A stretch of DNA of 64,000 nt from Paludibaculum fermentans. GTDB taxonomy: Bacteria > Acidobacteriota > Terriglobia > Bryobacterales > Bryobacteraceae. The notes under the pieces were generated by a model. It made no database searches and was not told the DNA's origin. It saw only the letters and a list, made by a program, of their open reading frames with translations. Location of the stretch: the NCBI RefSeq assembly GCF_015277775.1, contig NZ_CP063849.1, forward strand, positions 7,083,501 to 7,147,500, written 5' to 3'. This document shows positions 13,433 to 43,047 of this stretch, piece by piece; the stretch's first letter is position 1; each line of letters starts with the position of its first letter. The position numbers and the translations under genes were made by a program.

Positions 13433-13521
13433 CGAGGGATTGCCGCAGAAGCAAGTCAGTCTTTTTGCGTGATGGGCAGCCTGTCCGCCGGGCTGCCGGG
13501 CTTTAGCTAGAAAGGACAGTC

Positions 13522-13695: not shown

Positions 13696-13825
13696 AGGCC
13701 GGGATATCCGGTGTGGACCAGCGCGCGGGCACTGGATTCTGGCCTTCTCCCACAATCGAGGGCCACCAAAAATTGGGCCTTACCGTGCAGCGCAGTAATT
13801 GAACGAGATCAAGAAGGAGCAACAA

Positions 13826-14329: not shown

Positions 14330-14403
14330 GCAGCACCAATCGACGACGCCGGCGGTGTTTCATCGCCGGCCAGGCGCGTCCCATAAGCCAAAGGAAAATT
14401 TGA

Positions 14404-15285: not shown

Positions 15286-15309
15286 CCATCGATTCCTGAG
15301 TCGCTCCTC

Positions 15310-15347
15310 AAGGGGAAGCCAGCATAGTTTGGCATCCCCTTTTTTTC
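15310..15347 (+). terminator. intrinsic terminator after the chloroperoxidase-type hydrolase gene
   Basis: Arms aaggggaagcc (15310-15320) and ggcatcccctt (from 15331) pair with a single mismatch around a ten-base loop and run straight into a seven-T tract. Confidence 0.75.
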
Positions 15348-15409
15348 TCTCGAGGCGTGGTGACCGGACGGCGAACCGACTGCGGGATCACCGCCTTCCG
15401 CCAAGCTCA

Positions 15410-16864
15410 CTACACCGCGAAATCGATATGCCCGAGCTGCGGGTCCGTGTGGACGAGCTTCACCTTTAGCTGGTCACCCACATCCACACCCTGCTGGCCG
15501 CGAACGAGCAAGCCCTCTACCGGTGGATTCAGTACGCGGACGAAGACGCCTTTCGGTGTCACGCCCGTTACGACCGCCGCGAAGGTCTCCCCGATACGAT
15601 GCTCCAGCGCCACTGCGGCAATGCGCTTGTTCATCACCCGTTCCACTTTGCGAGCAGCATTCTCGCGGAGGGTGCAGTTCCTTGCAATGGATTCCAGTTG
15701 CTCGCCGGAATAGGGCACGGCCTGGCCGGCCAGCACGCATTTCATCAGACGTTGTGTTACCAGATCAGCGAAACGCCGGTTCGGCGCCGTGGAGTGAGTA
15801 TAGTCGTGAGCGGCGAGTGCGAAGTGGCCCTGATTCGTGTCGCCGGGCCGGGCGAAGGAGTATTCACCAGAACCCATCAGCTTGACCACCGCCAGGGACA
15901 GGTCCTCGAAGTGGACCGGGTCGGCCGCCCTCCTCCTCTCCAGAAATGCGTTGAGAGCTCCGGAATCCGCCGTTGCCGGGAGTGTTTCGCCGTAGCGGGC
16001 GGCGAGTTCCACGATGCGCGGCCACCGCTCCGGGGTCTTGACGACGCGCCGCAGGGAAGGAGCGCCGGCATTCAGCAGGGTGTGGGCCATGACTCCGTTG
16101 GCGGCAATCATGAAGGTCTCGATCAGGGCAGTGGCCCGGTTCTTTCCGCGGGCGTTGATTCCTTGCAGGCGTCCGCCGGAAAGGATGGCCTCGGCCTCGA
16201 CACGATCGATATTCAAAGCGCCCAGGCGATGACGTTCTCGAGAGAGCAGTTGAGCGGCCTCATCCTGAAGTTTGATTTGTGAGTTCAGCTCCGGTTGGGC
16301 GGTGACTTTGGGTGGTGCTCCGGCCGTGCCTTCCAGCCAGGGCCCCACTGCGTTGTAGGTCAACTGTGCGCGATTGCGCACCAGGGCACGATAGATGTCA
16401 CTGGAGGCAATAGCTCCGTCTCCGGCGACCACCATTTCCACAATCATCGCCAGACGATCGGACGCCTCGTTGAGAGAGGTCAGATCGGTCGACAGTTCTT
16501 CCGGCAGCATCGGAAACGTCTTGATGCCTGTGTAGACTGATGTCGTCTGCGACGCGGCATGCCCATCGATGGGGGTGCCGGAGGACACGGCGGAGTCGAC
16601 ATCCGCTATGGCGATAAGCACTCGAATACCAGCCTGGACGCGTTCAGCGACTTCCAACTGATCCAGATCCCGCGAAGTGTCGTTGTCGATGGACGACCAC
16701 TGCAGATGGCGCAGATCGCGGATGCCGTTCATCGCGGCCGGCGCGGGCCGCGCCTTCACCGCCGCCAGTTGGGCGTCCGTGCCAGGAGGGAAATCCGGAT
16801 CGAAGCCTTCGTGAACCATCTCCTGCCGCGCGGCGGCCGCGAGGTCGAACTCACCGTCATGCAT
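15410..16864 (-). CDS. RNB-domain ribonuclease (RNase II/R family)
   Basis: 484 residues, shorter than RNase R. The RNB catalytic motif is SIDNDTSRDLDQLE with Asp60, Asp66 and Asp68; the position of the last conserved Asp of E. coli RNase II is Gln69, as I recall for Deinococcus-type RNB enzymes. The C-terminal end carries an S1-like RNA-binding domain (VTGVTPKGVFVRV). It should degrade RNA 3'-to-5' in the cytoplasm. I prefer the ATG at 16864 to in-frame codons up to 16930; aggaaagg lies upstream. The Nramp-like gene ends 72 bases upstream on the same strand. Confidence 0.86.
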   Translation of the reverse strand: MHDGEFDLAAAARQEMVHEGFDPDFPPGTDAQLAAVKARPAPAAMNGIRDLRHLQWSSIDNDTSRDLDQLEVAERVQAGIRVLIAIADVDSAVSSGTPIDGHAASQTTSVYTGIKTFPMLPEELSTDLTSLNEASDRLAMIVEMVVAGDGAIASSDIYRALVRNRAQLTYNAVGPWLEGTAGAPPKVTAQPELNSQIKLQDEAAQLLSRERHRLGALNIDRVEAEAILSGGRLQGINARGKNRATALIETFMIAANGVMAHTLLNAGAPSLRRVVKTPERWPRIVELAARYGETLPATADSGALNAFLERRRAADPVHFEDLSLAVVKLMGSGEYSFARPGDTNQGHFALAAHDYTHSTAPNRRFADLVTQRLMKCVLAGQAVPYSGEQLESIARNCTLRENAARKVERVMNKRIAAVALEHRIGETFAAVVTGVTPKGVFVRVLNPPVEGLLVRGQQGVDVGDQLKVKLVHTDPQLGHIDFAV

Positions 16865-16936
16865 GCCCGTGATCGCCTTTCCTGCCAATATTTTGCCGCG
16901 GATCCAGCTGTGGCCTGGCGCGCAGCGCAAATCCTA

Positions 16937-29001: not shown

Positions 29002-29547
29002 CAGTGCCATCTCCTCATCTCGGCTAACAAACGGGGTGCCAGAGCACGCATAGGATTGGAAGTGCACGCGACGACGGACGCCATCGCGACTATCGATCAA
29101 AATCCTTCATCCAGCCAGCCTCTCCGCCGATGTTGAGTAACATACCACCATCGGCACCGGCTACGGGACCCGGCGAGGCGCGGGCGGTGGGTGTGGGGGA
29201 AGTCAGCGCTGGATACCAAAGTGCTGCCGGATCGAGCGGCGGTACCGGCACAGTGCTGTTTGGAAAGCGTGTGAATGCAAGCGTACACAGCTCATTCAGG
29301 CGCTGCCTCTTACGTCGCCTCCGGCGGATCCGTGGCCTCGGCGGCCTGCTCTATGGTGCAAAAGTGACCGTTGGCAAGTACGTTCGATCAAACCATGTCA
29401 GGACCCTGCAGGGTTTTGGGTGCTATTGCTCGGATCTGAGATCCGGCAATCTGGGAGCTGTCCGGAAGGTCGTTCTTGCCACCCTGGGACAGTTGATATA
29501 ATCGCGCCGGGCTATTGCCACTTTACGTAGGGGGCCAGGAGCAAGGT
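29002..29547. other. 546-bp intergenic stretch
   Basis: Lies between the divergently oriented propeller (-) and DUF1080 (+) genes. No frame with a ribosome binding site, domain or signal peptide was found, and no RNA gene is recognisable. It should hold the promoters for both directions. Confidence 0.45.
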
Positions 29548-30354
29548 ATGAATCTGAATGGCGTTCCATCCAAGCTGATGCGGGTGATCGTTTGCGGCAT
29601 GGCGATTGGCGCCGCCGTCTTCGCGCAGCAGGCGCCGCCGGCGGGTGCGGCAGCGGGTGCACAGGGTCGTCCGCGCGGTGCGGGCCGTGCCATGAATCCG
29701 GCGAATCTGGTGCCGCCGCTGGAAGAGTCGGGTTACACACAGATCTTTGACGGGAAGAGCCTGAACGGCTGGGATGTGGATCCGGATTTCTGGCGGGTGG
29801 AAGACGGCGCAATTGTGGGTGAGACCAAGGCCGATCATCAGCCAAAGCAGAACATCTTTGCGATTTGGCGCGGCGGCAAGCCGGCGGACTTCGAATTCAA
29901 GGCGCAATACCGGATGACCGGCGGCAACAGCGGCATCCAGTACCGCAGTATCGAGCGGCCTGATGTCGCGAAGTGGGTGCTGCAGGGCTACCAGGCGGAC
30001 ATCGACGCACAGCAGCAGTACACGGGACAGATCTATGAAGAACGCGGCCGGGGCTTCCTCGCCCTACGCGGCATGTTTGCCTATGTGGGTGACGGCAAGA
30101 AGACGGGCATGGTGGGCAAGGTCGGAGAGAATGAGGAGCTGAAGGCTTTCATCAAGAACGACGACTGGAACGAGATCCACATCATTGCCCGTGGCAATAC
30201 GATCATCCAGCTGATCAACGGCCACGTGATGGCCACGCTGGTGGACGACGACACCACGAAACGCAAGATGGACGGAGTGATCGGACTCCAGCTCCACCTC
30301 ACCAGCACCGGGATGAAGATCGAAGTCAAGAACATCCGTCTCAAAACGTTCTAA
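29548..30354 (+). CDS. DUF1080 (3-keto-disaccharide hydrolase-like) secreted protein
   Basis: 268 residues: signal peptide ([11 protein letters not shown]), an Ala/Gly/Pro linker, then the concanavalin-type DUF1080 domain with [34 protein letters not shown] and [17 protein letters not shown]. Members of this family in Planctomycetes, Bacteroidetes and Acidobacteria hydrolyse 3-keto-glycosides or related oligosaccharides; the exact activity here is inferred. ATG at 29548 after ggagcaaggt. Converges with another DUF1080 gene. Confidence 0.84.
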
Positions 30355-30396: not shown

Positions 30397-31257
30397 CTAA
30401 TACTTGCAGGCTGAGTTGTCTGCCTTGACGTAGTACGATTTGAAGTTTTTCGCCTTGGGGTCGATGCAGCCCACGAGGTTCAGCAATTCCACCTTGCGGA
30501 ACTCGATCGGGTGGCTTTCACTCTGCAGCGAGATGAAACCCTCATTCAACAGCATCCCGTCGGGTTTCGCCGTGGGATCGAAGTTAGTGACTGAACCGCC
30601 GCCGACCTGCGGCATCTCGTAGGTCAGCACCGTCTCTCCATTCACCACGTGGCGTACGACGCTGTCGCCATGCACCACGGCCTCCACCCGTACCCACTGA
30701 TCGCCATGGAACGTCTTCGACGTGGAATTGATGCAGTGCTTCGTCACCAGTGAGCCATCCATCACCAGATTGGTGCCGGGCGTACAGACATTCGCGTTGC
30801 TACGTGCATCCTTGCCGTTGCCGCCGAGCAGTTGCACTTCGATGGAAATAGGGAAATCCTGGTCCTTGCCCATCGTCTCAGGCCGCTGGCAGTGGATCAT
30901 GATGCCGCTGTTGCGAAACGCCCACGCCGGGCCGCCCTTGGCTTGCTCTCCCGTGAACCGGTATTCGACGGCGATGATGTAGTGCGAGAATTTGTCCTTG
31001 TAGAAGATGTGGCCGAAGCGGCTGTTGAACTGGTCGTATTTGTCGTATGAGACCTTCAGCAGGCCGTCTTCCACGCGAAATGTATTGCCGAAGTTGTCAC
31101 CAAATGCGTAGCCGGTGATCTTGGGCTTCCATCCGTCCAGGTTCTTTCCGTTAAAGAGCTGGACCCAGTCCTTCTGGTCCTGGGCTCCGGCGGGAGCTTG
31201 CGCGAAAAGCGGGGCCAGCAAGACAATCGGGGCAAGGGCGATGAGTATCGGTTTCAT
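30397..31257 (-). CDS. DUF1080 (3-keto-disaccharide hydrolase-like) secreted protein
   Basis: 286 residues: signal peptide (LAPIVLLAPLFA-QA) and DUF1080 domain with [50 protein letters not shown] and PIEFRKVELLNL. A short C-terminal tail (GCIDPKAKNFKSYYVKADN) carries a Cys pair (GC..ACKY) of thrombospondin-type-3-like appearance. It probably acts on exported glycosides. It lies 63 bases downstream of the electron-transfer operon on the same strand, but its content points to carbohydrate metabolism. Confidence 0.84.
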   Translation of the reverse strand: MKPILIALAPIVLLAPLFAQAPAGAQDQKDWVQLFNGKNLDGWKPKITGYAFGDNFGNTFRVEDGLLKVSYDKYDQFNSRFGHIFYKDKFSHYIIAVEYRFTGEQAKGGPAWAFRNSGIMIHCQRPETMGKDQDFPISIEVQLLGGNGKDARSNANVCTPGTNLVMDGSLVTKHCINSTSKTFHGDQWVRVEAVVHGDSVVRHVVNGETVLTYEMPQVGGGSVTNFDPTAKPDGMLLNEGFISLQSESHPIEFRKVELLNLVGCIDPKAKNFKSYYVKADNSACKY

Positions 31258-31320: not shown

Positions 31321-32229
31321 TCAGAAATAGCCCATCAGCACAGCGAGCCCGATGTGGAGAAACACGAGGACCGCAAAGGAATAGCTGAATGGCTTGTGAA
31401 TGACGTGCCAGAGATGGAAGATCTCGCCGGCGCGCCGCAGGAAAAGAATCTTGGCCGTCAGCCAGCCCTGCCTGCGTACGATGGCGAGTACTGCTTCCAA
31501 TTCGGGATGGTTCGAGCTTCGAAGGCCACCCAGGGAGAACATCAATTCGCTGCCGCTCAGAACCCGCCGGCGTAGGCGCGCCATTCGAAAGGGTCGCAAT
31601 ACATCCAGCCACGACATCCAGGCGATGGCCTGCCACAGGTGCATTCGATCCACCTGGGCGGCGGACGGCAATTGCAGGGCTTCGCGCAGGTCTGCTCCGT
31701 CGAAAACTTCCTGGCTGCGGATCTCGCGGTTCAGGTCCTGGCTCGTATCCTGCAATTCCCGTAAACTGACCTCCGCCATTGTCACGCTGCGCGGAATCTG
31801 GGCGTACAGGTAACGGCCGGCGATGCCGCTGACGACGATCGCCATCATGATCCAGTAGGCCATTCCAGCGAGGCCCTGCAGTTTGAGCGAGGAGTGAAAC
31901 GTGACAAGGACCGGCACGGCGAGTCCCAGGATGATGTGGATGTCCAACCAGTGACGCGTTTTCCCAATTCGTTGCAGCGGTTTCCAGTGCTTCCGCAGTG
32001 GATAGAGGAAGAGGCAAAGGAAGATCCCTAGCGAGAGCATCCCCACGCGGAGGCCGATCTGTCCCGACGGCCTCAGTTGCCAATGCCTGGGGTGGACAGG
32101 GCGTTCCGCCAGCGGCAGGCGATAGTAGTCGAATCCGATAGCGGTGAGCCAGAGGATCAGCCCCATTGCGCCGAACATGAGAAGTGCGGCGCGCAGGCGA
32201 TGGGGCAGTTCATTTCGAGCAGTACTCAT
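31321..32229 (-). CDS. inner-membrane di-heme b-type cytochrome (ferric-reductase-like)
   Basis: 302 residues with five hydrophobic helices. Two of them carry paired histidines exactly 13 residues apart: His98/His112 (DIHII ... TFHSS) and His278/His292 (VIHKP ... FLHIG). H-x13-H in two helices is the classical bis-histidine arrangement for two stacked b hemes across a membrane, as in cytochrome b and ferric-reductase/NOX proteins. A cytoplasmic or periplasmic helical loop of about 110 residues separates the pairs. No FAD or NAD domain is present, so quinol is the likely electron source. Its start overlaps the upstream stop (atga). Last gene of the electron-conduit operon. Confidence 0.76.
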   Translation of the reverse strand: MSTARNELPHRLRAALLMFGAMGLILWLTAIGFDYYRLPLAERPVHPRHWQLRPSGQIGLRVGMLSLGIFLCLFLYPLRKHWKPLQRIGKTRHWLDIHIILGLAVPVLVTFHSSLKLQGLAGMAYWIMMAIVVSGIAGRYLYAQIPRSVTMAEVSLRELQDTSQDLNREIRSQEVFDGADLREALQLPSAAQVDRMHLWQAIAWMSWLDVLRPFRMARLRRRVLSGSELMFSLGGLRSSNHPELEAVLAIVRRQGWLTAKILFLRRAGEIFHLWHVIHKPFSYSFAVLVFLHIGLAVLMGYF

Positions 32230-33008
32230 TGCTTACCTGTGGTGTCTCCCTTGACCTGGGTAACCTTCGATTCCGTTTCGACCGAGAACCGGCGGTAACC
32301 CGCGAACGTGTGTGTGTTGCGCCAGTGCTGGTGACGGGTGCGCGCATCGATGACAGCGGAGAGCGGCAGCCAAACCTGTGATGCGGCCCCCACCGCTCCG
32401 TACCGCACGAGACTGTGGAGCCCGACGAGGCCGATGTCTTCCAGCGGTTCGCGGAGATCCGATTCAATCTGATGAACCTGGCCGGTGGACTCATCGAGCC
32501 AGGCAACGCCCTTCCAGGGGATAGGGTATTGACGGCCCGAGACCTCGAGTACTGACGGTGAATCCTTCGTGCCGACATGCTCGAAGCTCAGTCTTGCCCA
32601 CTTCACCCCGTCGAGCATTTGTGGTTCCAGTTGCTCGAAGTGGTAACTGCCGGAGAAGCGCGGCAGAAAGATCATGAGCAGGACGGCAAAGCCCGTTGTT
32701 GAGAGCAACGGCTGCCCCGGTAGCTTTTGATGCTTCTTCTCAATACGGGATTCCTCCACCGAGAAGTCGCCACTGGATGCGTCCACCAGCAGCAGGTAGT
32801 CGAATTCGCTCTCACGGTGCTCCTGCACTTTGGAGCCATCGGAGAGCTTCAATTGTTCGAGGCGTTCGGTGCAGGCCATGGACGGGAACTCGGTGGCGAA
32901 CTGCTCGGCGCGGTTCTGTGCCCGCTGCAGCAGAGTGGCTGGAGCATCCTGCGAAGCGGCGGCAGGGACGGCGAGCGCAAACAGACAACAAGACGCGATG
33001 GCGAGCAT
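32226..33008 (-). CDS. secreted protein of the multiheme operon, function unknown
   Basis: 260 residues: signal peptide (CLFALAVPAAASQ), then a soluble domain without CxxCH. A short hydrophobic stretch (TGFAVLLMIFLPRF, about residue 105-118) and blocks such as YLLLVDASSGDF, WARLSFEHVG, GVAWLDESTGQVHQIESD and the VWLPLSAVIDART end resemble the lipoprotein-localisation (LolA-like) beta-sheet fold, but I could not assign it. It starts one base inside the stop of the upstream barrel gene (taatg) and overlaps the di-heme b gene, so it should be an accessory part of the same system. Confidence 0.7.
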   Translation of the reverse strand: MLAIASCCLFALAVPAAASQDAPATLLQRAQNRAEQFATEFPSMACTERLEQLKLSDGSKVQEHRESEFDYLLLVDASSGDFSVEESRIEKKHQKLPGQPLLSTTGFAVLLMIFLPRFSGSYHFEQLEPQMLDGVKWARLSFEHVGTKDSPSVLEVSGRQYPIPWKGVAWLDESTGQVHQIESDLREPLEDIGLVGLHSLVRYGAVGAASQVWLPLSAVIDARTRHQHWRNTHTFAGYRRFSVETESKVTQVKGDTTGKQ

Positions 33009-34660
33009 TAGAACCGGTACCCCACTGTGAGAAAAGTCTGATCATAGTTTTGAACCTGGCCCCGGTAGGTCATCCAGCCGCCTGTAACGAAGTAGTGACG
33101 GGAGAAGGACCAGTCAATGCTGCCGCCGATGAAGCGCGCGCGCGTTTGCTGGGTCAGCGCCCCGTGAAACTCCTGCTGCCCGGCCTGGGCCTCGAGCCGT
33201 AACTGCTCGCCGAGATTCCGAGTGAGCGTAAAGGAGGTGTAGCGGCCAGTGCCGAAGCTGCTGGTGAAGCTGCTGTAGCGCCCTTCCAGCCGGGATTTGA
33301 TCCAGGGCAACTGGCTCCAACTCGCGCTGTACATCTGGTTGAGGGAGGAGCGCGGGTCATTTTCGCGGTGGCTACGCCCCCAGTTGCCGCTCAGCGTCAG
33401 CCGGTCGATGGGTTGGACGCGGATGCCGCCGCTGAAGCCCTGAAAGAGGAAGTTGTCGAGGAGGCCGGTACCCAGCAGACGGATGTCGAAGGTGGGCGTG
33501 CCGCGGAGATGGTTGTGGCTGAGGTCGAAAGTAACCCGGCGGTGGGGCTGGAAGCGTGTGCTGGTGAAGCTTCTCGTGAGCTGCAGTCCGGTCTGGCCAT
33601 CGAACAGCCTCGGGTTGCGCTGGTCCGCTTCCATTGTGTGAAGGAGCGTGAACTTTGTGCCGACAAAGACGGAGTTCTCGGCGAAGAGGAATTGGCGTTC
33701 CGGGCGCCAATGCACGCGAGTGATGGCGACACCGACTGTGCCACTCCAGCGGGCGGATTCATAGTTGCCGCGCTGCGCGTTCAAAAACGTACCGAGCATC
33801 TGGCGATTCGGGTCGTAGTTCCACTGGGTGGGGTCCGGAGTGGAGCCGGCGAAGACACCGGCCGTCAGGGTCTTCCCGAATGAGCGTGCCAGGTAGCCGC
33901 CATCGAGCGTGCTCAGGCTGGATGCCCAGGGCAGCAGGACGCGTCCGAAGCCCAGTTGATAGGGGCTGCGCGGATTCGAGTAGAACAGGCCTATGTGATA
34001 GGTGCGGTTCACGAGGTCAGTCAGGGTTTGCGCCTGGCCGCCACTGGTCGAATTCACACGACCGCGCCAATAACCTGAGATCGACCAATAAGTTCCCTCG
34101 ATACGGGTCCAATCCACCCGAATTGCCATGCCCTCCTGATGGGAGGAGAGACCGGCACCGCTGCGGTCGTTCAGCGAGTTCCACTCGAAACCGAGACGGC
34201 CGGTGAGACGGCCTTCTTCAGTGAGCGGCGGGCTGGGCACATACTCGCGGACCTCCTCCTCCAATGGATCGCCGCTGGTGAAGCTCACGACTTGGGCGTA
34301 GCGCTGACGCCTGGCGGAGTTGCGAATGCGCTCGAGGTTTTCCTGGGCGGCGGTGGCAAGCAGCGCTAGGTCGCCGGGTTCCGGCTGCAGGTCGTCGACT
34401 GTGCTTCTGATTTCGCAGAAGGCTGACTGGGTTGCGACGGAGACGACGACGCCTTCTCCGACGGCTCTGGCGGACATTCGAGCCTCACCTGGAGCGAGAC
34501 GCTGGAAGGTGAGCTTCATGCCCTCAGCCAAGCCGGTGGCGCTCCCCTGGTCCAGATACACACCGCCTGCGACAACCTGGCGGATGTGAATTGGTGGAGA
34601 CGCTGTCTGCGCCAGCAGGACACTTGCCGGCGCCAGAAATGTGGCGATCCATCTCCACAT
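33008..34660 (-). CDS. outer-membrane beta-barrel of the multiheme cytochrome operon
   Basis: 550 residues: signal peptide (FLAPASVLLA-QT), a periplasmic N-terminal domain (about 25-125) with VYLDQGSATGLAEGMKL, a helical linker, then a long run of amphipathic beta-strands rich in Tyr, Trp, Arg and Gly, ending FLTVGYRF. The final Phe and alternating pattern are the outer-membrane insertion signal. The ATG lies two bases after the stop of the giant cytochrome, preceded by aagggga. In porin-cytochrome conduits a barrel holds a multiheme cytochrome across the outer membrane, and this protein could play that part. It shows no obvious MtrB/PioB CXXC signature. Confidence 0.78.
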   Translation of the reverse strand: MWRWIATFLAPASVLLAQTASPPIHIRQVVAGGVYLDQGSATGLAEGMKLTFQRLAPGEARMSARAVGEGVVVSVATQSAFCEIRSTVDDLQPEPGDLALLATAAQENLERIRNSARRQRYAQVVSFTSGDPLEEEVREYVPSPPLTEEGRLTGRLGFEWNSLNDRSGAGLSSHQEGMAIRVDWTRIEGTYWSISGYWRGRVNSTSGGQAQTLTDLVNRTYHIGLFYSNPRSPYQLGFGRVLLPWASSLSTLDGGYLARSFGKTLTAGVFAGSTPDPTQWNYDPNRQMLGTFLNAQRGNYESARWSGTVGVAITRVHWRPERQFLFAENSVFVGTKFTLLHTMEADQRNPRLFDGQTGLQLTRSFTSTRFQPHRRVTFDLSHNHLRGTPTFDIRLLGTGLLDNFLFQGFSGGIRVQPIDRLTLSGNWGRSHRENDPRSSLNQMYSASWSQLPWIKSRLEGRYSSFTSSFGTGRYTSFTLTRNLGEQLRLEAQAGQQEFHGALTQQTRARFIGGSIDWSFSRHYFVTGGWMTYRGQVQNYDQTFLTVGYRF

Positions 34661-34662
34661 GG

Positions 34663-35623
34663 CTATGAGTTCCCCTTCGGATGGCATTGATAGCAACTAG
34701 GGCTCGCATAGACGTAGTTCTTGCGCCCGTTGTGCTTTTTGTCCATGTCGGTCTTGTTGTGGGCGTGGCAATCGATACAGCTGAAGACCGCGTAGTTGGA
34801 CGGCGTTGTGTGGCAGTCGTTGCAGGTGGTCCACTTGCCGGCGTGCTTGCCCGTGTAGATGGGGAAGTTGTGGTTGAACTTGGCACCCTTCCACTGCGTG
34901 GTGGTGTGGCAGGAGGTACAGGTATGCGGGAAACCGGCCGTCAGGTGATTGGGGTTGGAAACCTGCTCGTAGACCTTCTGATGGCAGGCGTAGCAGTCTG
35001 TTGGGGTGCCGGTATAGCGTCCGCCGACATGGCAGTTTGCGCAGGCGACGGAGGTATGTGCGCCGGTGAGCGGGAATTTCGTCAGCGCATGATTAAAGAC
35101 CGCGCCTTTCCACTGCGTGGTGGAATGGCAGACTGAGCAATCCTTCGGGAAGCCTGCCGTGACGTGGTTCGGATTGGTGGTGGAGTTGTAAAGAGGCAGA
35201 TGGCAGGCATCGCAATTCATGGGCGTGCCCGCATAGACCCCATTCACATGGCACAGGCTGCACTGGGTGGTCGCATGCTTGCCGGTGAGAGCAAAGCGCG
35301 TCGCACTGTGATTGAAGACCGCGCCCTTCCACTGGGTGGTGTTGTGGCAGGCGGTGCAATCAGTGGGGAAGCCCGCCGCGGCGTGGTTGGGATTCGTAGT
35401 GGACTTGTACAGCGCCAGGTGGCACGACTGGCAAGTCTGCGGAGTTCCTTTGAAAGTGTTGTTGACGTGACAGCTCAGGCACGGAGCCTGGAGGTGTGCG
35501 CCCGTCAGGGGGAACTTGGTCATGGACGTGTGGTCGAACTGGGCGCCCTTCCACTGTGTCGTGTTGTGGCAGACCGTGCAGTCTTTGGGGAAGCCGGCGG
35601 TGGCGTGGTTGGGGGTGGTCGTT
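34663..35623 (-). CDS. giant multiheme cytochrome c, C-terminal portion
   Basis: About 320 residues in one frame with 13 CxxCH motifs, continuing the same 73-residue module pattern as the upstream portion (CHNTTQWKGA.F.H, FPLTGAH, SCHV....GTP..C..CH). It closes with a different cap (TCNDCHTTPSNYAVFSCID, then CYQCHPKGNS). It is joined to the upstream portion only through the out-of-frame duplicated blocks. The frame itself stays open to 35868 but is out of register with the repeat before about 35623. The stop is followed two bases later by the barrel gene. Heme attachment would need periplasmic maturation. Confidence 0.72.
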
Positions 35624-35992
35624 TCTGGTAGTCGGGCAGGTGGCAGCCGTCGCACGTTTGCGGTGTGCCTTTGTAGACGCCGTTCACGTGACAGAGTGAG
35701 CACTGCGTTTGCACATGGGCGCCGGTCAGGGGGAACTTGGTCATGGCGGTGTGATCGAACTTCGCGCCCTTCCATTGGGTGGTGGTGTGGCAGACGATGC
35801 AGTCTTTGGGGAAGCCGGCGGCCGCGTGATTGGGTGTAGACGTCTTCTGGTAGTCGGGGGTATGGCATCCCTCGCAGGTGGAGACGGTGCCTGCGTACTT
35901 ATTGCCGATGTGACAGCTCTGGCACGGTGTGGCGACATGCGCGCCGGTCAGAGCGAACTTTGTCTTGGAGTGGTCGAAGAGGGCGCCCTTGC
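35621..35992. repeat. 372-bp perfect direct repeat, copy 1
   Basis: Identical base for base to 36128-36499 (offset 507). On the minus strand it encodes about 1.7 cytochrome modules with five CxxCH, but in a frame shifted by one relative to both flanks. It starts at an apparent one-base loss (gtttctggtag where sister modules have gtcttctggtag) and ends at gcgcccttgc. Confidence 0.9.
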
Positions 35993-36127
35993 GTTTGCAC
36001 ATGTGCGCCGGTGAGCGGGAACTTGGTCATGGCGGTGTGATCGAACTTCGCGCCCTTCCACTGGGTAGTGGTGTGGCAGGCCGCGCAGTCTCTGGGGAAG
36101 CCGGCTGAGGCGTGATTCGGGTTCACC
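35993..36127 (-). pseudogene. multiheme cytochrome fragment between duplicated blocks
   Basis: 135 bases in the same frame as the main gene, encoding one half-module (NPNHASAGFPRDCAACH, then TTTQWKGAKFDH and FPLTGAH). It is bounded on both sides by the out-of-frame 372-bp blocks, so it cannot be expressed as written. It is either part of a decayed gene or of a misassembled one. Confidence 0.55.
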
Positions 36128-36499
36128 GTTTCTGGTAGTCGGGCAGGTGGCAGCCGTCGCACGTTTGCGGTGTGCCTTTGTAGACGCCGTTCACGTGACA
36201 GAGTGAGCACTGCGTTTGCACATGGGCGCCGGTCAGGGGGAACTTGGTCATGGCGGTGTGATCGAACTTCGCGCCCTTCCATTGGGTGGTGGTGTGGCAG
36301 ACGATGCAGTCTTTGGGGAAGCCGGCGGCCGCGTGATTGGGTGTAGACGTCTTCTGGTAGTCGGGGGTATGGCATCCCTCGCAGGTGGAGACGGTGCCTG
36401 CGTACTTATTGCCGATGTGACAGCTCTGGCACGGTGTGGCGACATGCGCGCCGGTCAGAGCGAACTTTGTCTTGGAGTGGTCGAAGAGGGCGCCCTTGC
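36128..36499. repeat. 372-bp perfect direct repeat, copy 2
   Basis: Second identical copy. On the minus strand its frame encodes CQSCH, CEGCH, CIVCH, CSLCH and CDGCH in normal module order, but an apparent seven-base insertion near 36494-36506 (gcgcccttgccctttcc where sister modules read gcgcccttcc) and a one-base loss near 36130 put it out of register with both flanks. Confidence 0.9.
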
Positions 36500-39297
36500 C
36501 CTTTCCACTGGGTGGTTGTATGGCAGACGGCGCAGTCCTTGGGGAAGCCCGCTGTGACATGGTTAGGATTCGTCGTCTTCTGATAGTCGGGAGTGTGGCA
36601 CCCCTCGCAGGTGGACACGGTGCCGGCGTACTTGTTGCCGACGTGGCAACTCTGGCAGGGCGTTGCAACGTGAGCGCCAGTCAAAGCGAACTTTGTCTTG
36701 GAGTGGTCAAAGACTGCGCCCTTCCATTGCGTGGTCGTGTGGCAGAGGGTGCAACTGGTGGAGAACCCGGCAGAAGCATGATTCGGGTTCGTGGTCTTCT
36801 GGTAGTCCGGCAGGTGACAGCCGTCGCAGGTCTGTGGAGTGCCTTTGAAGACGTTGCTCACGTGACAGAGTGAACATTGCGCCTGAAGGTGTGCCCCGGT
36901 CAACGGGAATTTTGTCATTGTCGTGTGATTGAAAACCGCACCCTTCCACTGGGTTGTGGTGTGACAGAGCGTGCAGTCTTTTGGGAAGCCGGCTGCGGCG
37001 TGATTGGGGTTTGTTGTCTTCTGGAAGTCTGGAGTGTGACAGCCCTCACAGGTGGATGGAGTCCCAGCGAACTTGTTGCCGATATGGCAGCTTTGGCAGG
37101 CGGTTGCCACGTGCGCTCCGGTCAGTGCGAACTTCGTCCTTGCGTGGTCGAATTGCGCGCCCTTCCACTGAGTGGTGGTATGGCAGATGGAGCAGCTTGT
37201 CGAAAACCCGGCAGAAGTATGATTCGGATTGATGGTCTTCTGGTAATCCGGCATGTGACAGCCTTCGCAGTTGGAGACCGTGCCGGTGAACTTTCCGCCC
37301 ACGTGGCAACTGGCGCATTGGACGGTTGTATGTGCACCCGTTAGTGGGAACTTCGTCTGGGCGTGGTCGAACCTGGCGCCTTTCCACTGAACGGTGGTGT
37401 GGCAGACATTGCAGTCTGTTGGGAATCCGGAGGCCGCGTGATTGGGGTTCGTGGTGCCCTGGTAGTCCTTCAGATGGCAGCCTGAACAGACCGCCGGGGT
37501 GCCGGTGTACTTCCCGCCGACATGGCAACTGGCGCAGGCGACCGTTGTGTGCGAACCGGTGAGAGGGAACCTGGTCTTACCGTGGTCGAACTGGGCGCCT
37601 TTCCATTGGGTGGTTGTGTGGCACGAGGCGCATTCCTGGCTGAATCCCGCGGCCTGATGATTGGGCGAAGTCGTTCCCTGGAAATCCTTCAAATGGCAGC
37701 CAGAGCAGGTCTGCGGCGTGCCCGCGAACTGGCCGCCGACATGGCAGCTCTGGCAGGCAAGTGGAGAGTGGGCGCCTGTGAGGGGGAACTTGGTCATCGC
37801 GTTGTGGTTGAAGTTCGCGCCCTTCCACTGTGTCGTGGTGTGGCACACCGTGCAGTCCTTCGGGAATCCCGCGGCCGCGTGCTCCGGTGACTTGGCGGCC
37901 GTGAAGTCCTTCAAGTGACAGCCTTCGCAGGTTGCTGCTGTGCCGGCGAACTTGTTTCCGACATGGCAGCCGAGGCAGGCCACCGATGTATGCGCACCTG
38001 TCAAGGGGAAGCGCGTGCTGGCCGCATGGTCGAATTGGGCGCCCCTCCACTGGGTGGTGTTGTGGCAGGTGTTGCAAGTCTTCGGGAATGCGGCTGCAAC
38101 ATGCGCGGGGTTTGTGCTGGTCTCGTAGGCCTTTATATGACAGCCGTCGCAGGTTTGAACCGTGCCGGTGTATTTGCCCGCCACATGACACAGAGCGCAT
38201 TCGACAGAGGTGTGCGCGCCTGTCAATGGGAAGCGGCTGAGAGAGTGGTCGAACTTGGCGCCCTTCCAGACTGTGGTTGTGTGACAGCTCGCGCAGTCTT
38301 TCGGGAAGGCACTCGCGGCGTGGTTCGGGTTCACGGTCTTCTGATAGTCGGGCATGTGACAGCCGTCGCACTGCTGCGGTGTCCCGGCGAAGCGCCCGGC
38401 TACGTGGCAGGCTGAGCAGGCCACCGATGTGTGCGCACCCGTGAGAGCAAATGTTGTGCGCGCCGCGTGGTCGAAGACAGCACCGCGCCAGGTCGAGGTG
38501 GTGTGGCAGGTCTGGCACTCTCGGGGGAATCCGGCCTGTACGTGGTTCGGATCGGTGGTGGATGCGAACTGCGTGTTGTGGCAGTCGAAGCACTGCGCGG
38601 GCGTTCCAACATACCGGCCGCCTACGTGGCAGCTGCGGCATTCCAGCGTGGTGTGGGATCCGGTGAGCGCGAAGCCGGTTACCGCCTGATGATCGAAGCG
38701 GGCGCCGCGCCAGGTGTCCATGCCGTGGCAGCTCTCGCACTTGATGGCGAACCGTCCACTGGTGTGCGGCGGGTTCTGGGCTTTCGCGAAATCGGCTGTG
38801 TGGCAGGCTGCACAATCCGTGCTCAGGCCAAGGTACTGCCCGACCGCAGCGCCGCGATGGCAGCTCTCGCAGGGCACGCTCGCGTGCGCCCCAACCAGTG
38901 GGAATCGATTGGAATGTTCACGTGTCTGCTGGACGGCGGTCTTCCAGCCCTTGACGGTGTGGCAATCCTCGCAGCGGCCCCCGAACTGGCGTCGATGGAT
39001 ATCTGCGTGACAGGCGGCGCAGGTGTGGCCCACATCCTTGAAGACTCTGGCAACGTGGCAGCCGGAGCACGCCACCCCGGCGTGCATACCACGCAGTGGA
39101 TAGGCCGTTTCTGTGTTGTGATTGAACTCCGGCTGGGCACGGAGCGGACGCCAACTGCTGGAGGTGTGACAGGTCTCACAAGCGACCTTCAGCGGCCCAT
39201 GTGGGTTGCGGGTCCGGTTGGCGCCCGGTGCTGTCTGGCTGGACAGCAGGGCCGGCAAGCCCATGAGCGCGATCAGAGTCAGGACAATCCTCTTCAT
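36406..39297 (-). CDS. giant multiheme cytochrome c, N-terminal and central portion
   Basis: Signal peptide (LTLIALMGLPALLSS) followed by 37 CxxCH heme motifs before the reading frame leaves the repeat register near 36500; the last 30 residues of the written frame are nonsense. From about residue 190 the protein is built of roughly 73-residue modules, each with three CxxCH plus a conserved W-K/R-G-A-x-F-D/N-H block and F-P/A-L-T-G-A/S-H block whose histidines are likely distal heme ligands. DNA shows a matching period of about 219 bp. The start overlaps the stop of the 23-heme cytochrome (atga). It should be exported and loaded with heme in the periplasm, probably forming a long heme wire. 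Confidence 0.87.
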   Translation of the reverse strand: MKRIVLTLIALMGLPALLSSQTAPGANRTRNPHGPLKVACETCHTSSSWRPLRAQPEFNHNTETAYPLRGMHAGVACSGCHVARVFKDVGHTCAACHADIHRRQFGGRCEDCHTVKGWKTAVQQTREHSNRFPLVGAHASVPCESCHRGAAVGQYLGLSTDCAACHTADFAKAQNPPHTSGRFAIKCESCHGMDTWRGARFDHQAVTGFALTGSHTTLECRSCHVGGRYVGTPAQCFDCHNTQFASTTDPNHVQAGFPRECQTCHTTSTWRGAVFDHAARTTFALTGAHTSVACSACHVAGRFAGTPQQCDGCHMPDYQKTVNPNHAASAFPKDCASCHTTTVWKGAKFDHSLSRFPLTGAHTSVECALCHVAGKYTGTVQTCDGCHIKAYETSTNPAHVAAAFPKTCNTCHNTTQWRGAQFDHAASTRFPLTGAHTSVACLGCHVGNKFAGTAATCEGCHLKDFTAAKSPEHAAAGFPKDCTVCHTTTQWKGANFNHNAMTKFPLTGAHSPLACQSCHVGGQFAGTPQTCSGCHLKDFQGTTSPNHQAAGFSQECASCHTTTQWKGAQFDHGKTRFPLTGSHTTVACASCHVGGKYTGTPAVCSGCHLKDYQGTTNPNHAASGFPTDCNVCHTTVQWKGARFDHAQTKFPLTGAHTTVQCASCHVGGKFTGTVSNCEGCHMPDYQKTINPNHTSAGFSTSCSICHTTTQWKGAQFDHARTKFALTGAHVATACQSCHIGNKFAGTPSTCEGCHTPDFQKTTNPNHAAAGFPKDCTLCHTTTQWKGAVFNHTTMTKFPLTGAHLQAQCSLCHVSNVFKGTPQTCDGCHLPDYQKTTNPNHASAGFSTSCTLCHTTTQWKGAVFDHSKTKFALTGAHVATPCQSCHVGNKYAGTVSTCEGCHTPDYQKTTNPNHVTAGFPKDCAVCHTTTQWKGQGRPLRPLQDKVRSDRRACRHTVPELSHRQ

Positions 39298-41234
39298 TCG
39301 TGGCATGCCTCGCAACGTCTGGGAGTTCCGCGATAGACAACCACCCTTCCGGTGGCACCGGCTTGGCCGGTGTGGCACATCCGGCACGGCACCCGTTCGT
39401 GCGCACCGGACAGAGAGAAGGTGGAGTGCTTCTGGTGATCGAATGAGTCGGCCCGCCAGTTTGTGGGCCCGTGACACCGGCCGCAATCCGGCTGTGGCTG
39501 GCCGGAGCCGCGAAACTGCCCGGCGTGGACATCCGCATGGCAGGCGGCGCATTCTTTGCCCGCAGTATGAAACACGATTGTTCTGCGGGCATTGGCTGTC
39601 GCGGGTTTGTGGCATCCAACACAGGGAGCCCCGCGATGCCGGCCGAGCAGTGGAAACGCGGTCCGGCCGTGGTCGAACGGTGCAGTCTCGCGCCAGTTCC
39701 GCGCAGTGTGGCATTGATCGCAGGACCAGTTGCCCTTGAGCGCCGGGCTGGCCGCGTCGCTATGTGGATTCTCGTGACAGGCGGCGCATTCCTGCCTCAA
39801 CCCGTGGTACTGAATGGGTTCGGCCGCACTGGCAGAGTGGTGGCAGTCGGCACATGGAACCGCCTTGTGGCCGCCGGCCAGAGGGAAACTCGACTTCGCG
39901 TGATCCACCAGGGTGTAGCGCACCGTCTTCCACCCAACGACGTCATGGCATTGCTCGCAGCGGTTCCGCCAAGGTGCGCCGGAAAACTGCCCGGCGTGGC
40001 GGTCCTTGTGGCAGCGCAGGCAGGAGTCGAAGGCGGGATGGAAGTTCAGGGCTGTTCCTCCTCCGGGGTGGCAGTTACCGCACGCTACTTTCGCGTGTCC
40101 ACCCCCCAACGGGTAGCGGGTCTGCGCGTGCGCCGCCGAGTCGAAAAGTATGGTCTTCCAGCCCGACTCGTTATGACAGGCAGCGCACTCCCCACCCGCC
40201 CGGGCGAGCAGTTGTCCCTGGTGCTTGTCGCGGTGGCAATCCATGCAGCGCTCATGCGCTACGGGTGTCCGGAAGTTGGCCGTCGCGTGGCACTTCTGGC
40301 AGTCGACGGCGCGGTGCAGGCCCACCAAAGGAAACTTCGTGCGGCTGTGATCGAAAGTGGATTCGCTGTGGACCGTCTTCCAGTTCTCCGTGGTATGGCA
40401 CTTCTGGCAGTCGGCCGCGAATGCCCCTCCGTGTTTGTCCGCATGGCAGGACTTGCACTGTTCCTGGAAAACGAAGTTCTTGTACTGAACCCGGTTGCCG
40501 AGCGCAGCGACTGGTTTGTGGCAACCATCGCAGCGGACCCTGGTATGCGCACCCGTGAGGGGGAACTCGGTTTTGTCGTGCTGGAAGCCGGAGGCGTTCT
40601 TCCACTGATCCTGCGAATGGCACTTCTCACAATTGGCGCCGAGCGCTCCGCGGTGGATGTCGTCATGACAACTTGCGCATGCCCCACTCAGGCCGAGCAG
40701 CGTCTTGGAAAGGTCGTTCTGTTTCAGTTCCTGCCTGGCGGTGTCCAGGATATGCTTGGGTTGGTGACACTGCTGGCAGGACAGCCCGGCGTGACGTCCT
40801 TGCAACATGAACCCGGCCTGGCGGTGATCGAACTTGGCTTTCGGAACACGCCAGCGGACCAACTCGAAGGCCCGCCCATTGTGCTCAGCGTGACATCGGG
40901 CACAGTCACTGGAAGCGGCGTTGCCGGTTCCCCGGATGATCTGTGCGTGATAGCCGGCTTTCTGTTCCAGGCGCCGGCGGATCTCCACGTGGCAATCCAG
41001 GCACTTGAGATGCGCTCCACCTGTTCCAAAACTGTGGCAGCTGGCGCACTTTAGCGCGCCCTCCAATGCCTGGTGAGAATGGGACAGCTCTCCCGGCGAC
41101 ATCTGCGCATGCAGCGTCCCTAAATTGAACAGCAGCCCGATCAGGAGCGTGCTTCCTACCCCAACCCGTATTCCTAGTAAGAGCATTACCAACCCAACTG
41201 CAGAATTCACTAACGGCGCGTGTGTACGCACCAC
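39294..41234 (-). CDS. 23-heme c-type cytochrome, first gene of the conduit operon
   Basis: About 630-646 residues with an N-terminal hydrophobic signal or anchor (GSTLLIGLLFNLGTLHA) and 23 CxxCH motifs. Motifs come in alternating types: CHADKHGG, CHRDKHQG and CHADVHAG forms, CHT..NWK forms, and an F(D)H....FPL.G.H....C..CH unit, a less regular version of the module in the giant partner. It is presumably periplasmic and passes electrons from the membrane b-type protein towards the outer membrane. GTG 41234 and ATG 41186 are both possible starts; neither has a convincing ribosome binding site. Its stop overlaps the next gene by four bases. Confidence 0.85.
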   Translation of the reverse strand: MVRTHAPLVNSAVGLVMLLLGIRVGVGSTLLIGLLFNLGTLHAQMSPGELSHSHQALEGALKCASCHSFGTGGAHLKCLDCHVEIRRRLEQKAGYHAQIIRGTGNAASSDCARCHAEHNGRAFELVRWRVPKAKFDHRQAGFMLQGRHAGLSCQQCHQPKHILDTARQELKQNDLSKTLLGLSGACASCHDDIHRGALGANCEKCHSQDQWKNASGFQHDKTEFPLTGAHTRVRCDGCHKPVAALGNRVQYKNFVFQEQCKSCHADKHGGAFAADCQKCHTTENWKTVHSESTFDHSRTKFPLVGLHRAVDCQKCHATANFRTPVAHERCMDCHRDKHQGQLLARAGGECAACHNESGWKTILFDSAAHAQTRYPLGGGHAKVACGNCHPGGGTALNFHPAFDSCLRCHKDRHAGQFSGAPWRNRCEQCHDVVGWKTVRYTLVDHAKSSFPLAGGHKAVPCADCHHSASAAEPIQYHGLRQECAACHENPHSDAASPALKGNWSCDQCHTARNWRETAPFDHGRTAFPLLGRHRGAPCVGCHKPATANARRTIVFHTAGKECAACHADVHAGQFRGSGQPQPDCGRCHGPTNWRADSFDHQKHSTFSLSGAHERVPCRMCHTGQAGATGRVVVYRGTPRRCEACHE

Positions 41235-41553: not shown

Positions 41554-43047
41554 TCACGCCTTGAGAGCGTTGGGTTTGCGTTCCACTGCCTTAGGTCCGG
41601 AGGCTCCCGGAACAAAGAAGTCCTGCCATCCTAATTTGCACTCTTTGATGATTTGCAGACCATACTCACAGCGCAAAAGATCGGCCGGACCTGTATTGTT
41701 CGTACCCATCGTGAACTTGACGCCAGCGGCTTTTGCCATCTGAACGAATAGGGCGCTGGGCAGCTTATACCGGTTGTTGATCTCCATCGCTACGCCGTTC
41801 CGCGCCAAGGCCGCCACCACCTTCTTCATCCGTTCCTCAGTCCACAAGCTGGCATAGTCCTTCGCAATGGCATCCGGAAGGAACGTCGGGTTGACGTAGA
41901 TATCGACCGGTTCCTTGTCGATGATCCCCACGGCGCGATCGACCAGGGTATCCATGAACTCCTGCGGATCGGCGATCGTGCCGACTTCATCCGGCAGCCA
42001 TGTCCGCATCCGGCGACCTCGATTGTCCGTCCACGTCATGGAATCGGTGAAGACATAGTCGAAGAGCGCCGCTGTCTTACTGGAGAACATTTGCGTCCAC
42101 TCGCGGCCTTCCGCCTGCATGGCGACGAAGACCGGTTGGCCCTTCAGGCTCTCGACGAACTGGCGGGCCGTCGCGTCGTCCTGGACGGGGAAGCCCTTGC
42201 CGCAATTGACGGCGATCCCGTACATGATGCCATCCTGGCGCGACTTCTGGAGCGCCTGCTCGAGAGTGAGTCCGAGCTTCAGGTGCACATGGAAATCGAC
42301 CATGGGGATGTTGTGTGCGCCGTAGTTGATGATGTCCACGAAGGTCTGGTCCGGCGGCGGATAAGCGATCTTCGTTGTGGGGAGCTCATCGGATAACGGC
42401 CGGACACGGATGCTCTTGTACATCGCGTGGGAGCCCGGATCGTGACCCTGCAGCGCGAAAGTCCCGTGATCCAGGAACCGGCCGCGCTCGGAGCCTTCGG
42501 CAATCACGGGCGGGTTGGGCTCGTTGTAATCGACCACCAACATTCCGTTCAGCCGCACCTGTACGTTCTTCATGCGTACCGAGATGTGCAGCTTGAACCA
42601 CTCGTTGTCGGGCACAAATTGCTTGTAGACATTGCGGACCCCATAAAGGGATCCCGTCTTCTTGCGTTCCCGGTAGCTGCCCTCACCCGTCGCCGTATTG
42701 TTGACTTGGACTTCGAAGCCTTTCTGCGGAAAGCCCGTCTCCTGATAGGTGGAATGGAAATAGACGCCCGAGTTGCAGCCCGGCTTGGTCATTACCTCCG
42801 CTTCGAGCTCGAAATTCCGGAAGTCCGCACCCTTCACTGGACCCTCATAGAAAAGGTGTGAGCGTCCGCCATCGTTCGACAGCAGACCGTCAACCACCTT
42901 CCATGTCCCCTTGTTCTCACTGGCTTTCCAACCTTTGAGCGAGGAGCCGTCGAACAGGGGAAGCCAGCCGTCATCGGCGGCGGACAGTTGGCTGGCGGCA
43001 GCCAGAGAGGCGACAAAAGCGCGGCGGGAGATTTCGGAGGTCGGCAT
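41554..43047 (-). CDS. DUF1080 domain fused to a PHP/amidohydrolase-like domain, Tat-exported
   Basis: 497 residues: Tat signal (ISRRAFVASLAAAS), then a DUF1080 concanavalin-type domain (about 28-220: LFDGSSLKGWKAS, NSGVYFHSTYQE, WFKLHISVRMKN), then a second domain (about 240-480) opening MVDFHVHLK. That His-x-His in a TIM-barrel-like context is typical of PHP or amidohydrolase metal sites, with further candidate ligands near VAMQAEGRE and VEINNRYKLP. The fusion of a glycoside-acting module with a metal hydrolase is unusual. Likely periplasmic, acting on a plant- or microbe-derived saccharide conjugate. Confidence 0.8.
   Translation of the reverse strand: MPTSEISRRAFVASLAAASQLSAADDGWLPLFDGSSLKGWKASENKGTWKVVDGLLSNDGGRSHLFYEGPVKGADFRNFELEAEVMTKPGCNSGVYFHSTYQETGFPQKGFEVQVNNTATGEGSYRERKKTGSLYGVRNVYKQFVPDNEWFKLHISVRMKNVQVRLNGMLVVDYNEPNPPVIAEGSERGRFLDHGTFALQGHDPGSHAMYKSIRVRPLSDELPTTKIAYPPPDQTFVDIINYGAHNIPMVDFHVHLKLGLTLEQALQKSRQDGIMYGIAVNCGKGFPVQDDATARQFVESLKGQPVFVAMQAEGREWTQMFSSKTAALFDYVFTDSMTWTDNRGRRMRTWLPDEVGTIADPQEFMDTLVDRAVGIIDKEPVDIYVNPTFLPDAIAKDYASLWTEERMKKVVAALARNGVAMEINNRYKLPSALFVQMAKAAGVKFTMGTNNTGPADLLRCEYGLQIIKECKLGWQDFFVPGASGPKAVERKPNALKA

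Follow-up and report, generated by a model that had tools for sequence, protein, structure and literature searches.

Among the described conduits for extracellular electrons, the closest to the locus treated here is PCC3, which He et al. predicted in 2017 as a porin-cytochrome cluster of Proteobacteria (PMC5566968). According to that report, it comprises a porin, an extracellular cytochrome (median of 34 hemes, up to 85), a periplasmic cytochrome (median of 21 hemes) and an inner-membrane protein (IMP) of 300 amino acids with five helices, an SGxxG motif in the fourth transmembrane helix and the motif WX3HX13H on helices 3 and 5; the cytochromes hold one heme per 22–39 residues. PCC3 was reported there from iron and manganese oxidisers, Sideroxydans ES-1 carries the clusters Slit_0867-0870 and Slit_1446-1449 (PMC8788666), and the system is functionally unverified according to PMC12442390. 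Here, we describe a five-gene cluster of Paludibaculum fermentans (Acidobacteriota), located in a 64,000-nucleotide stretch of the chromosome contig (positions 7083501-7147500; hereafter the window, to whose coordinates all positions refer unless another locus is named), that very probably encodes a conduit of the PCC3 type. Because of the evidence from its 23-heme cytochrome, its barrel and the IMP tree, the cluster is, as far as its sequences tell, a deep acidobacterial branch of PCC3 and not a new kind of system.

P. fermentans P105, a facultative anaerobe, reduces Fe(III) in a process coupled to fermentation; its genome consists of a chromosome of 9,476,802 bp and a plasmid of 55,292 bp, and the genome announcement mentions multiple multiheme cytochromes, not this cluster (PMC8407742). 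The five genes lie in a row on the minus strand (31321-41234; Table 1) and encode two multiheme cytochromes (MHC1 and MHC2), a barrel, an accessory protein and a b protein corresponding to the IMP. The original prediction, made from the DNA letters before this analysis, had five consecutive genes, most overlapping by 1–4 bases, and this is indeed the case at three of the four junctions: MHC1 and MHC2 share 4 nt, barrel and accessory gene 1 nt, accessory and b protein gene 4 nt. MHC2 and the barrel gene are spaced by 2 nt, given that the barrel starts at the likelier ATG (34660). The envisaged coverage of inner membrane, periplasm and outer membrane is borne out by the predicted parts.

Homology to PCC3

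MHC1 contains the 23 CxxCH motifs originally claimed for it, in 646 residues (28.1 per heme), and 35 histidines outside these motifs, i.e., more than one spare for each heme. Its Pfam matches are Cytochrome_C7/Cytochrom_c3_2. For comparison with PCC3, Burkholderiales loci of PCC3 make-up were used, not the ES-1 sequences. MHC1 aligned end to end with its homologue from Rubrivivax albus (33% over 637 columns, E 9e-82), as it did with that from Emticicia oligotrophica of the Bacteroidota (35%, E 4e-131).

The 302-residue b protein has the features by which the PCC3 IMP is recognized (∼300 residues, five transmembrane helices, SGxxG and two WX3HX13H motifs). Hydropathy peaked near residues 15-33, 58-76, 97-115, 119-145, and 284-302; the WX3HX13H motifs begin at residues 94 and 274, and SGxxG is S134-G135-x2-G138. 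W94, H98, H112, S134, G135, G138, W274, H278, and H292 were invariant in 14/14 aligned rows, and at least two WX3HX13H motifs were present in 13/13 close loci, 7/8 further ones, 8/9 distant ones (the ninth being a fragment) and 19/19 Burkholderiales PCC3 rows. A hidden Markov model (HMM) of the IMP matched four of the five Burkholderiales genomes first tried, strongly in Aquabacterium humicola, R. albus and a Rubrivivax metagenome-assembled genome (MAG; E 2e-35 to 1e-34) and weakly in Schlegelella (1e-9, at a seven-heme cluster); Aquabacterium terrae gave no IMP match. The cytochromes beside the three strong matches carry 27+70, 24+34, and 24+11 (cut) hemes, which is the PCC3 pattern. When 300 Burkholderiales genomes were searched, 20 had an IMP match, 17 of PCC3 type and 3 belonging to 10-heme FHA clusters. 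The IMP tree comprised 56 of 58 rows (the fragments L194 with 157 and L104 with 155 residues fell below the limit of 180); in it, the Burkholderiales PCC3 sequences formed one clade (support 100/99) and those of Acidobacteriota and Emticicia another (93/96). Support for grouping these two clades together, with the FHA and seven-heme clusters left outside, was modest (87/60), and long branches occur among the outgroups.

The barrel matched no Pfam or NCBIfam family; no hydrophobic helix was seen in a hydropathy scan, and its C-terminal end is YRF. When its profile was widened with distant acidobacterial barrels, hhalign gave a probability of 91% for the match to PCC3 porins (E 1e-6, 385 columns) and 85.8–91.5% when Emticicia was left out; no control, whether reversed or one of the 12 shuffled ones, exceeded 1.9%. 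The porin candidates (n = 12) were the open reading frames (ORFs) following MHC2 in the Burkholderiales loci, and the widened HMM ranked six of them first among 509 Burkholderiales ORFs. Five of the twelve had E values below 0.001 (1e-5 to 6e-4), the other seven lay above, and the same five led when the Emticicia row was removed (9e-6 to 0.0025). The widened HMM, when built from the other barrels, recovered the Emticicia barrel itself (E 6e-34); hhalign gave 98.7% for it and 0.2% for the reversed control. The narrow HMM without the Emticicia row missed it, and the widened set alone links Emticicia and the PCC3 porins. On these profiles, the acidobacterial barrel appears weakly and distantly homologous to the PCC3 porins. 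Sequence searches of the PDB found no convincing relatives for MHC1, MHC2, the barrel or the b protein.

The cluster had been put forward as an undescribed system. Because PCC3 has homologues of three of its components, namely the IMP, the 23-heme cytochrome and (weakly) the barrel, it turned out to fall largely within a conduit already described, and the idea was rejected.

Conservation, heme counts and the giant cytochrome gene

In 61 genomes, that of P. fermentans included, the barrel was found in 13 and the IMP in 17. All 13 barrel genomes have the IMP gene ∼780-910 nt downstream on the same strand, so chance clustering was rejected. The order MHC1-MHC2-barrel-accessory-IMP was observed in seven loci spanning MHC1 to IMP (window included); the remaining loci among the relatives are cut by contig ends. 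The same order, followed by a sixth gene, was present in 8/8 further loci (L183-L190), seven from the same class and one (G566) from another. Thus, the recurrence of the gene order in other Acidobacteriota, proposed as a check of the original prediction, was found. The further and the distant neighborhoods together were read in 17 of the 49 acidobacterial genomes with an IMP match, two more of the 49 being G000 (P. fermentans) and G032. The accessory protein, which had no Pfam or NCBIfam match and is probably exported, judging from its hydrophobic N-terminus, was matched by its HMM (E ≤ 0.001) in 8/8 of the loci L183-L190 and in 0/9 distant acidobacterial loci (L191-L199), some of them truncated.

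MHC1 has 23 hemes in all 14 loci of the close clade in which its gene is unbroken; outside this clade, the number is 20, 23, or 24 (distant Acidobacteriota), 24 or 27 (Burkholderiales), and 23 (Emticicia). MHC2 of the same 14 loci varies between 22 and 64 hemes (the pieces in the window counted as 61), 11 of the numbers being of the form 3n+1 and 3 multiples of three, which fits gain and loss of triheme units. MHC2 of the window aligned with MHC1 (32%, E 6e-67), and the two cytochromes are therefore related repeat proteins. In one further locus (L188 of G387, 12167-16893), each of the two cytochromes is divided between two ORFs (4+19 and 5+23 CxxCH), likely due to sequence faults in the repeats.

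The giant cytochrome had been predicted as the product of one of the five genes; a single intact gene for it is not present in the deposited sequence. From its ATG at 39297, MHC2 runs in a single frame to ∼36500 and encodes 37 CxxCH motifs. A 373-nt segment then occurs twice, identical to the letter (36499-36127 and 35992-35620), each time in a different frame with 5 CxxCH motifs; 1 motif lies between the copies and 13 follow them, adding up to 61 in pieces. Past the second copy, the original frame resumes until the stop at 34663, 2 nt ahead of the barrel start. In the relative G006, the ORF is unbroken with 64 CxxCH motifs (24.9 residues per heme), and the MHC2 DNA of the window is collinear with it (identity 72% and 81%). 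The longest exact repeats in MHC2 of the relatives were 105 nt (G006), 113 nt (G011), and 50 nt (G032), all below 373 nt; that of G002 is at least 140 nt, the contig beginning inside the repeat, and G023 has no exact repeat of at least 30 nt. For the closure of the P105 genome, Nanopore reads were used to bridge the gaps left between 454 contigs (PMC8407742), the deposited reads being SRX9395395 and SRX9395396. Because of this mode of closure, under which repeats of the MHC2 type would be easily misjoined, a misjoined repeat is the likelier cause of the break, which is probably an assembly fault of the deposited genome. The alternative, that the cluster of P105 is decaying, with MHC2 as a genuine pseudogene and a dead or truncated conduit, would account for two exact copies with frameshifting ends and for the lack of an intact giant ORF; it is quite unlikely, however, given that the frame returns for 13 more CxxCH motifs up to the barrel start, that the other four genes are open, that G006 is intact, and that repeats of this kind would be easily misjoined in such an assembly.

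In three distant Acidobacteriota (L194, L195, and L191), MHC1 and MHC2 are encoded in one reading frame (Table 1). Alignment half by half, which covered L194 and L195 and not L191, gave the best matches with the separate MHC1 and MHC2 of L197 (39-56% vs 27-28% for the crossed pairs). Such fusions support the notion that MHC1 and MHC2 would be wired in series, the fused chain possibly threading the barrel. They would fit a single compartment as well as threading, however, and thus also a cluster without any extracellular wire, in which both cytochromes serve as a periplasmic store of electrons or heme and the barrel is an unrelated transporter. With the barrel being syntenic with the cytochromes in Acidobacteriota as well as in Emticicia, and distantly homologous to PCC3 porins, we consider such a store very unlikely, the least probable of the alternatives. 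Fixed inner and variable outer heme numbers, together with the fused single chains, constrain how the wire can be laid out across the envelope.

A promoter/terminator scan revealed no promoter-like sites, and the number of terminator-like sites (10 seen vs 8.8 expected) was uninformative. Genes resembling 3-keto-disaccharide hydrolases (DUF1080) flank the cluster on both sides (29515-30354, 30397-31257, and 41554-43047; assigned by eye).

Table 1. Coordinates of the cluster genes in the window and of the fused cytochrome genes in distant Acidobacteriota
Feature	Position	Strand	Basis or remark
MHC1, 23-heme c-type cytochrome, 646 aa, predicted periplasmic, family of PCC3 periplasmic cytochromes	39294..41234	(-)	CxxCH count, Pfam, alignments
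MHC2, giant triheme-repeat cytochrome gene, predicted outer/extracellular wire, frameshift-broken in the assembly	34663..39297	(-)	61 CxxCH in pieces; collinear with G006
Exact 373-nt copy no. 1 within MHC2, other frame, frameshift-bounded	36127..36499	(-)	
Exact 373-nt copy no. 2 within MHC2, same frame problem	35620..35992	(-)	
Predicted outer-membrane beta-barrel, distant relative of PCC3 porins	33008..34660	(-)	C-terminal Phe; N-terminus signal-peptide-like (by eye)
Accessory protein, 260 aa, hydrophobic N-terminus	32226..33008	(-)	
Predicted inner-membrane di-heme b-type protein (IMP), PCC3 IMP family, 302 aa	31321..32229	(-)	two WX3HX13H + SGxxG
Fused MHC1-MHC2	L194 10700-14467		51 CxxCH
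Fused MHC1-MHC2	L195 5875-10893		53 CxxCH
Fused MHC1-MHC2	L191 4710-8246		44 CxxCH, cut at contig end

A ferredoxin-flavoprotein partner and the route of electrons

The sixth gene found after the IMP gene in 8/8 of the loci L183-L190, and directly after it in 8/14 loci of the relatives (own genome included), encodes a flavoprotein of ∼430-505 residues that has a hydrophobic segment at its N-terminus and carries two 4Fe-4S motifs as well as a pyridine-nucleotide-disulphide oxidoreductase domain. Its matches in the PDB are YpdA/thioredoxin-reductase and ferredoxin-NADP reductase (FNR-type) chains. In 9/9 rows from three phyla (alignment A3), the second 4Fe-4S motif has a histidine for the second cysteine (C-x2-H-x2-C-x3-C), and in 4/9 of these rows the first motif has a serine for a cysteine. 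In 15 of the 17 Burkholderiales PCC3 genomes, the flavoprotein gene is located beside the IMP gene in divergent orientation, and in the other two it is 8 and 18 kb off on the same contig.

Co-occurrence was determined in three sets of genomes, the P values of Fisher's test being uncorrected for shared ancestry. Among the relatives, full-length flavoprotein was present in 13/14 IMP genomes and 0/47 others (2e-12); 14 of the 17 IMP matches were used, the weak partial ones of G021, G037, and G039 being left out, and the flavoprotein cut-off was >480 bits, whereas 39 genomes pass 1e-40, the rest of them with ≤316 bits and without the ferredoxin part. In Burkholderiales, where the FHA-type IMP matches of G087, G217, and G315 were counted as non-PCC3, it was found in 17/17 PCC3-type genomes and 0/283 others (4e-28); of the further Burkholderiales, both PCC3-type genomes (R. 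albus and the Rubrivivax MAG) and 0/2 without PCC3 have it. In Acidobacteriota, 29/41 IMP genomes and 0/355 others carry it (9e-35), with cut-offs of E < 1e-50 for the IMP (49 genomes pass 1e-15) and >400 bits for the flavoprotein (32 pass 1e-90, the extra ones, G381, G415, and G427, being partial with 307-344 bits).

As described by He et al. (PMC5566968), PCC3 comprises four genes and no flavoprotein, and the main text of that paper contains neither FAD, pyridine, ferredoxin nor flavoprotein. Searches of PMC10734462, PMC12016527, PMC12442390, and PMC8788666 for some of these terms gave no mention linked to PCC3. The partner thus appears to be unreported in the literature searched, most subscription journals lying outside that search. 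New here are the flavoprotein partner, the fixed inner and variable outer heme numbers, and the single-chain fusions.

From these parts, a route can be proposed. Electrons of NAD(P)H (or ferredoxin) would enter the membrane-anchored flavoprotein, whose Fe-S clusters would pass them to the two b hemes of the IMP, and these would carry them across the inner membrane as in NADPH oxidases. MHC1, with its fixed length of 23 hemes, would then take them over the periplasm, from where they would go through the barrel and be conducted out of the cell by MHC2, the triheme-repeat wire, with Fe(III) or humics as acceptors. P. fermentans could in this way discharge surplus reductant during fermentation. 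That the cluster exports electrons is likely on the present comparisons. We are evenly divided about whether the flavoprotein rather than quinol is the main donor, and the statement as a whole—a trans-envelope conduit of the PCC3 superfamily, flavoprotein-fed and exporting electrons to Fe(III) or humics—is one in which we place about as much trust as doubt. Its generalization is more tentative: PCC3-type conduits in at least three phyla might be flavoprotein-fed and not quinone-linked, with NADPH-oxidase-like loading onto the di-heme b protein, a fixed periplasmic wire and an outer wire lengthening in triheme steps, and in some Acidobacteriota a single polypeptide of ∼51-53 hemes might cross the outer membrane via the barrel.

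The conduit had originally been called quinol-driven. That is one possibility among others, in which the b protein would oxidize quinol and hand the electrons to MHC1, the flavoprotein being a regulatory or maturation partner or part of another route; by genomic association, the ferredoxin-flavoprotein is its strongest partner for the b protein. The membrane domains of ferric reductases and NAD(P)H oxidases are fed by flavins. HX13H on helices 3 and 5 is also found in these domains according to He et al. (PMC5566968), who had proposed a quinone-linked b protein, and in the Burkholderiales searched the flavoprotein occurs one to one with PCC3-type IMPs, both of which argue against quinol as the source. 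In P. fermentans, however, the flavoprotein gene (C1:663301-664611) is unlinked to the cluster and located beside RND-efflux-like genes (locus L180, 9242-11209), it is likewise unlinked in the two closest relatives (G002 and G006), and G028 has the cluster while no full-length flavoprotein was found, as is the case in 12 of the 41 acidobacterial IMP genomes (in G381, the N-terminal part lies at a contig end). Because the gene is unlinked here and missing from some genomes, feeding by the quinol pool is a serious rival, although we give it less than even credence.

Electrons might also flow inward: for PCC3 of iron oxidisers, uptake via the wire has been proposed, and here Fe(II), Mn(II), or partner cells would be the donors. 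The occurrence of PCC3 in iron and manganese oxidisers (PMC5566968) is consistent with this direction, as is the IMP gene of one PCC3 copy in strain CL21, whose expression was the sole significant change and rose when iron oxidation was possible (PMC12442390). By contrast, both ES-1 clusters were reported to be down-regulated on Fe(II) (PMC8788666), which weakens a role in iron oxidation in that organism; P105 lives heterotrophically and reduces Fe(III) (PMC8407742), and the transport of electrons into the cell onto an NAD(P)-type flavoprotein would run against the membrane potential and be unfavorable. Uptake is therefore unlikely.

Several observations weigh against the flavoprotein-fed PCC3-type conduit as proposed. 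The co-occurrence counts ignore shared ancestry, and the unlinked or missing flavoprotein genes have been mentioned. A stop-free giant MHC2 ORF is absent in this assembly, and the join of the two IMP clades has the modest support given above. The link between barrel and porins is weak, seven of the twelve candidates lying above the E value of 0.001, and it depends on the widened alignment: the narrow profile (A2; eight acidobacterial barrels and that of Emticicia) found no PCC3 porin and reached 1.1% in hhalign. Structure predictions from single sequences were poor for both the barrel (window 33083-34657, without the last 24 residues; predicted local distance difference test, pLDDT, of 30) and the b protein (pLDDT of 52), their quality being too low for a fold search. 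The response of the ES-1 clusters to Fe(II) also has to be counted here.

Acidobacteriota are abundant in soils and wetlands. With a strong IMP match (E < 1e-50) in 41 of 396 sampled acidobacterial genomes, electron export via a PCC3-type route could matter for the redox chemistry of iron and humics in soil. PCC3 clusters are widespread. With a branch in a cultured Fe(III) reducer, and with a flavoprotein partner that co-occurs strongly across several phyla, tests of both their function and their cytoplasmic electron source come within reach.

Comparison with known systems

With MtrCAB, MtoAB, and PioAB, the cluster shares the combination of porin, periplasmic and outer multiheme cytochromes and the same presumed working. 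Membership was rejected, as the barrel has no MtrB/PioB domain (PF11854) by Pfam, the genome gave 0 MtrB_PioB matches (a model that yielded a signal in just 1/14 control genomes, below its cut-off), and MHC1, with 23 rather than 10 hemes, is only weakly similar to DmsE/MtrA-type decaheme cytochromes (TIGR03508, 43.2 bits vs a cut-off of 192.2). The unlikeness to Mtr components originally stressed is supported by these results. For OmbB-OmaB-OmcB, ExtABCD, and Uet, the cluster gave no NCBIfam match above cut-off, no direct comparison with their sequences having been made.

The b protein matched 12 plasmid records, for 4 of which the neighborhoods were read. The 10-heme FHA clusters (Sphingobium plasmid L057; L141-L143) and the seven-heme clusters (Methylophaga plasmid L056, Salinimonas plasmid L058, and L105) likewise combine a multiheme cytochrome with an adjacent, related membrane protein of the di-heme type, and the plasmid loci have an Fe-S or FAD-type protein alongside; unlike the present cluster, they form separate, long-branched IMP clades, and no pair of cytochromes with 20 or more hemes was seen beside them. 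On the Sphingobium plasmid (L057 8824-11492), the 10-heme cytochrome is fused to an FHA domain, with similar genes in three Burkholderiales (L141-L143). As a separate clade, this cluster was rejected as PCC3.

Among other phyla and relatives, a Holophaga was described to have MtrB- and ExtB-type conduits (PMC7399161), Verrucomicrobia another porin-cytochrome cluster with eight-heme cytochromes (PMC5615132), and Acidobacteriota large multiheme proteins (PMC8100337). For three Acidobacteria MAGs, extracellular electron transfer systems not homologous to Geobacter pcc were reported (PMC6137239); these may belong to the PCC3-like family described here. No paper joining PCC3 with Acidobacteriota was found, although a subscription paper may exist, and none joining PCC3, porin, heme and Bacteroidetes.

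The plasmid pEMTOL02 of E. oligotrophica (NC_018749.1; locus L055, 5869-17667) comes close to the present cluster, with an IMP (30%), the flavoprotein, a barrel belonging to the same family, and MHC1 and MHC2 with 23 and 40 hemes; the annotation of its genes reads hypothetical, NAD(P)-binding or cytochrome c3 family. It differs in its order (IMP-flavoprotein-MHC1-MHC2-barrel, with ccsA upstream) and in having no match to the accessory family.

PCC3 of Burkholderiales differs from the acidobacterial cluster in phylum and IMP clade, in a longer barrel with a different N-terminal part, after which the profile match begins, in the lack of the accessory protein, in an MHC1 with 24 or 27 instead of 23 hemes, and in a rotated order of the same set (IMP-MHC1-MHC2-porin vs MHC1-MHC2-barrel-accessory-IMP-flavoprotein). 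It shares with it a homologous IMP with the same motifs, a homologous periplasmic cytochrome of 21-27 hemes, an outer cytochrome that is repetitive, dense in hemes and highly variable in length, a distantly homologous barrel and, as found in this analysis, the same flavoprotein partner; the residues per heme of MHC1 and of the G006 MHC2 both lie within the PCC3 range of 22-39.

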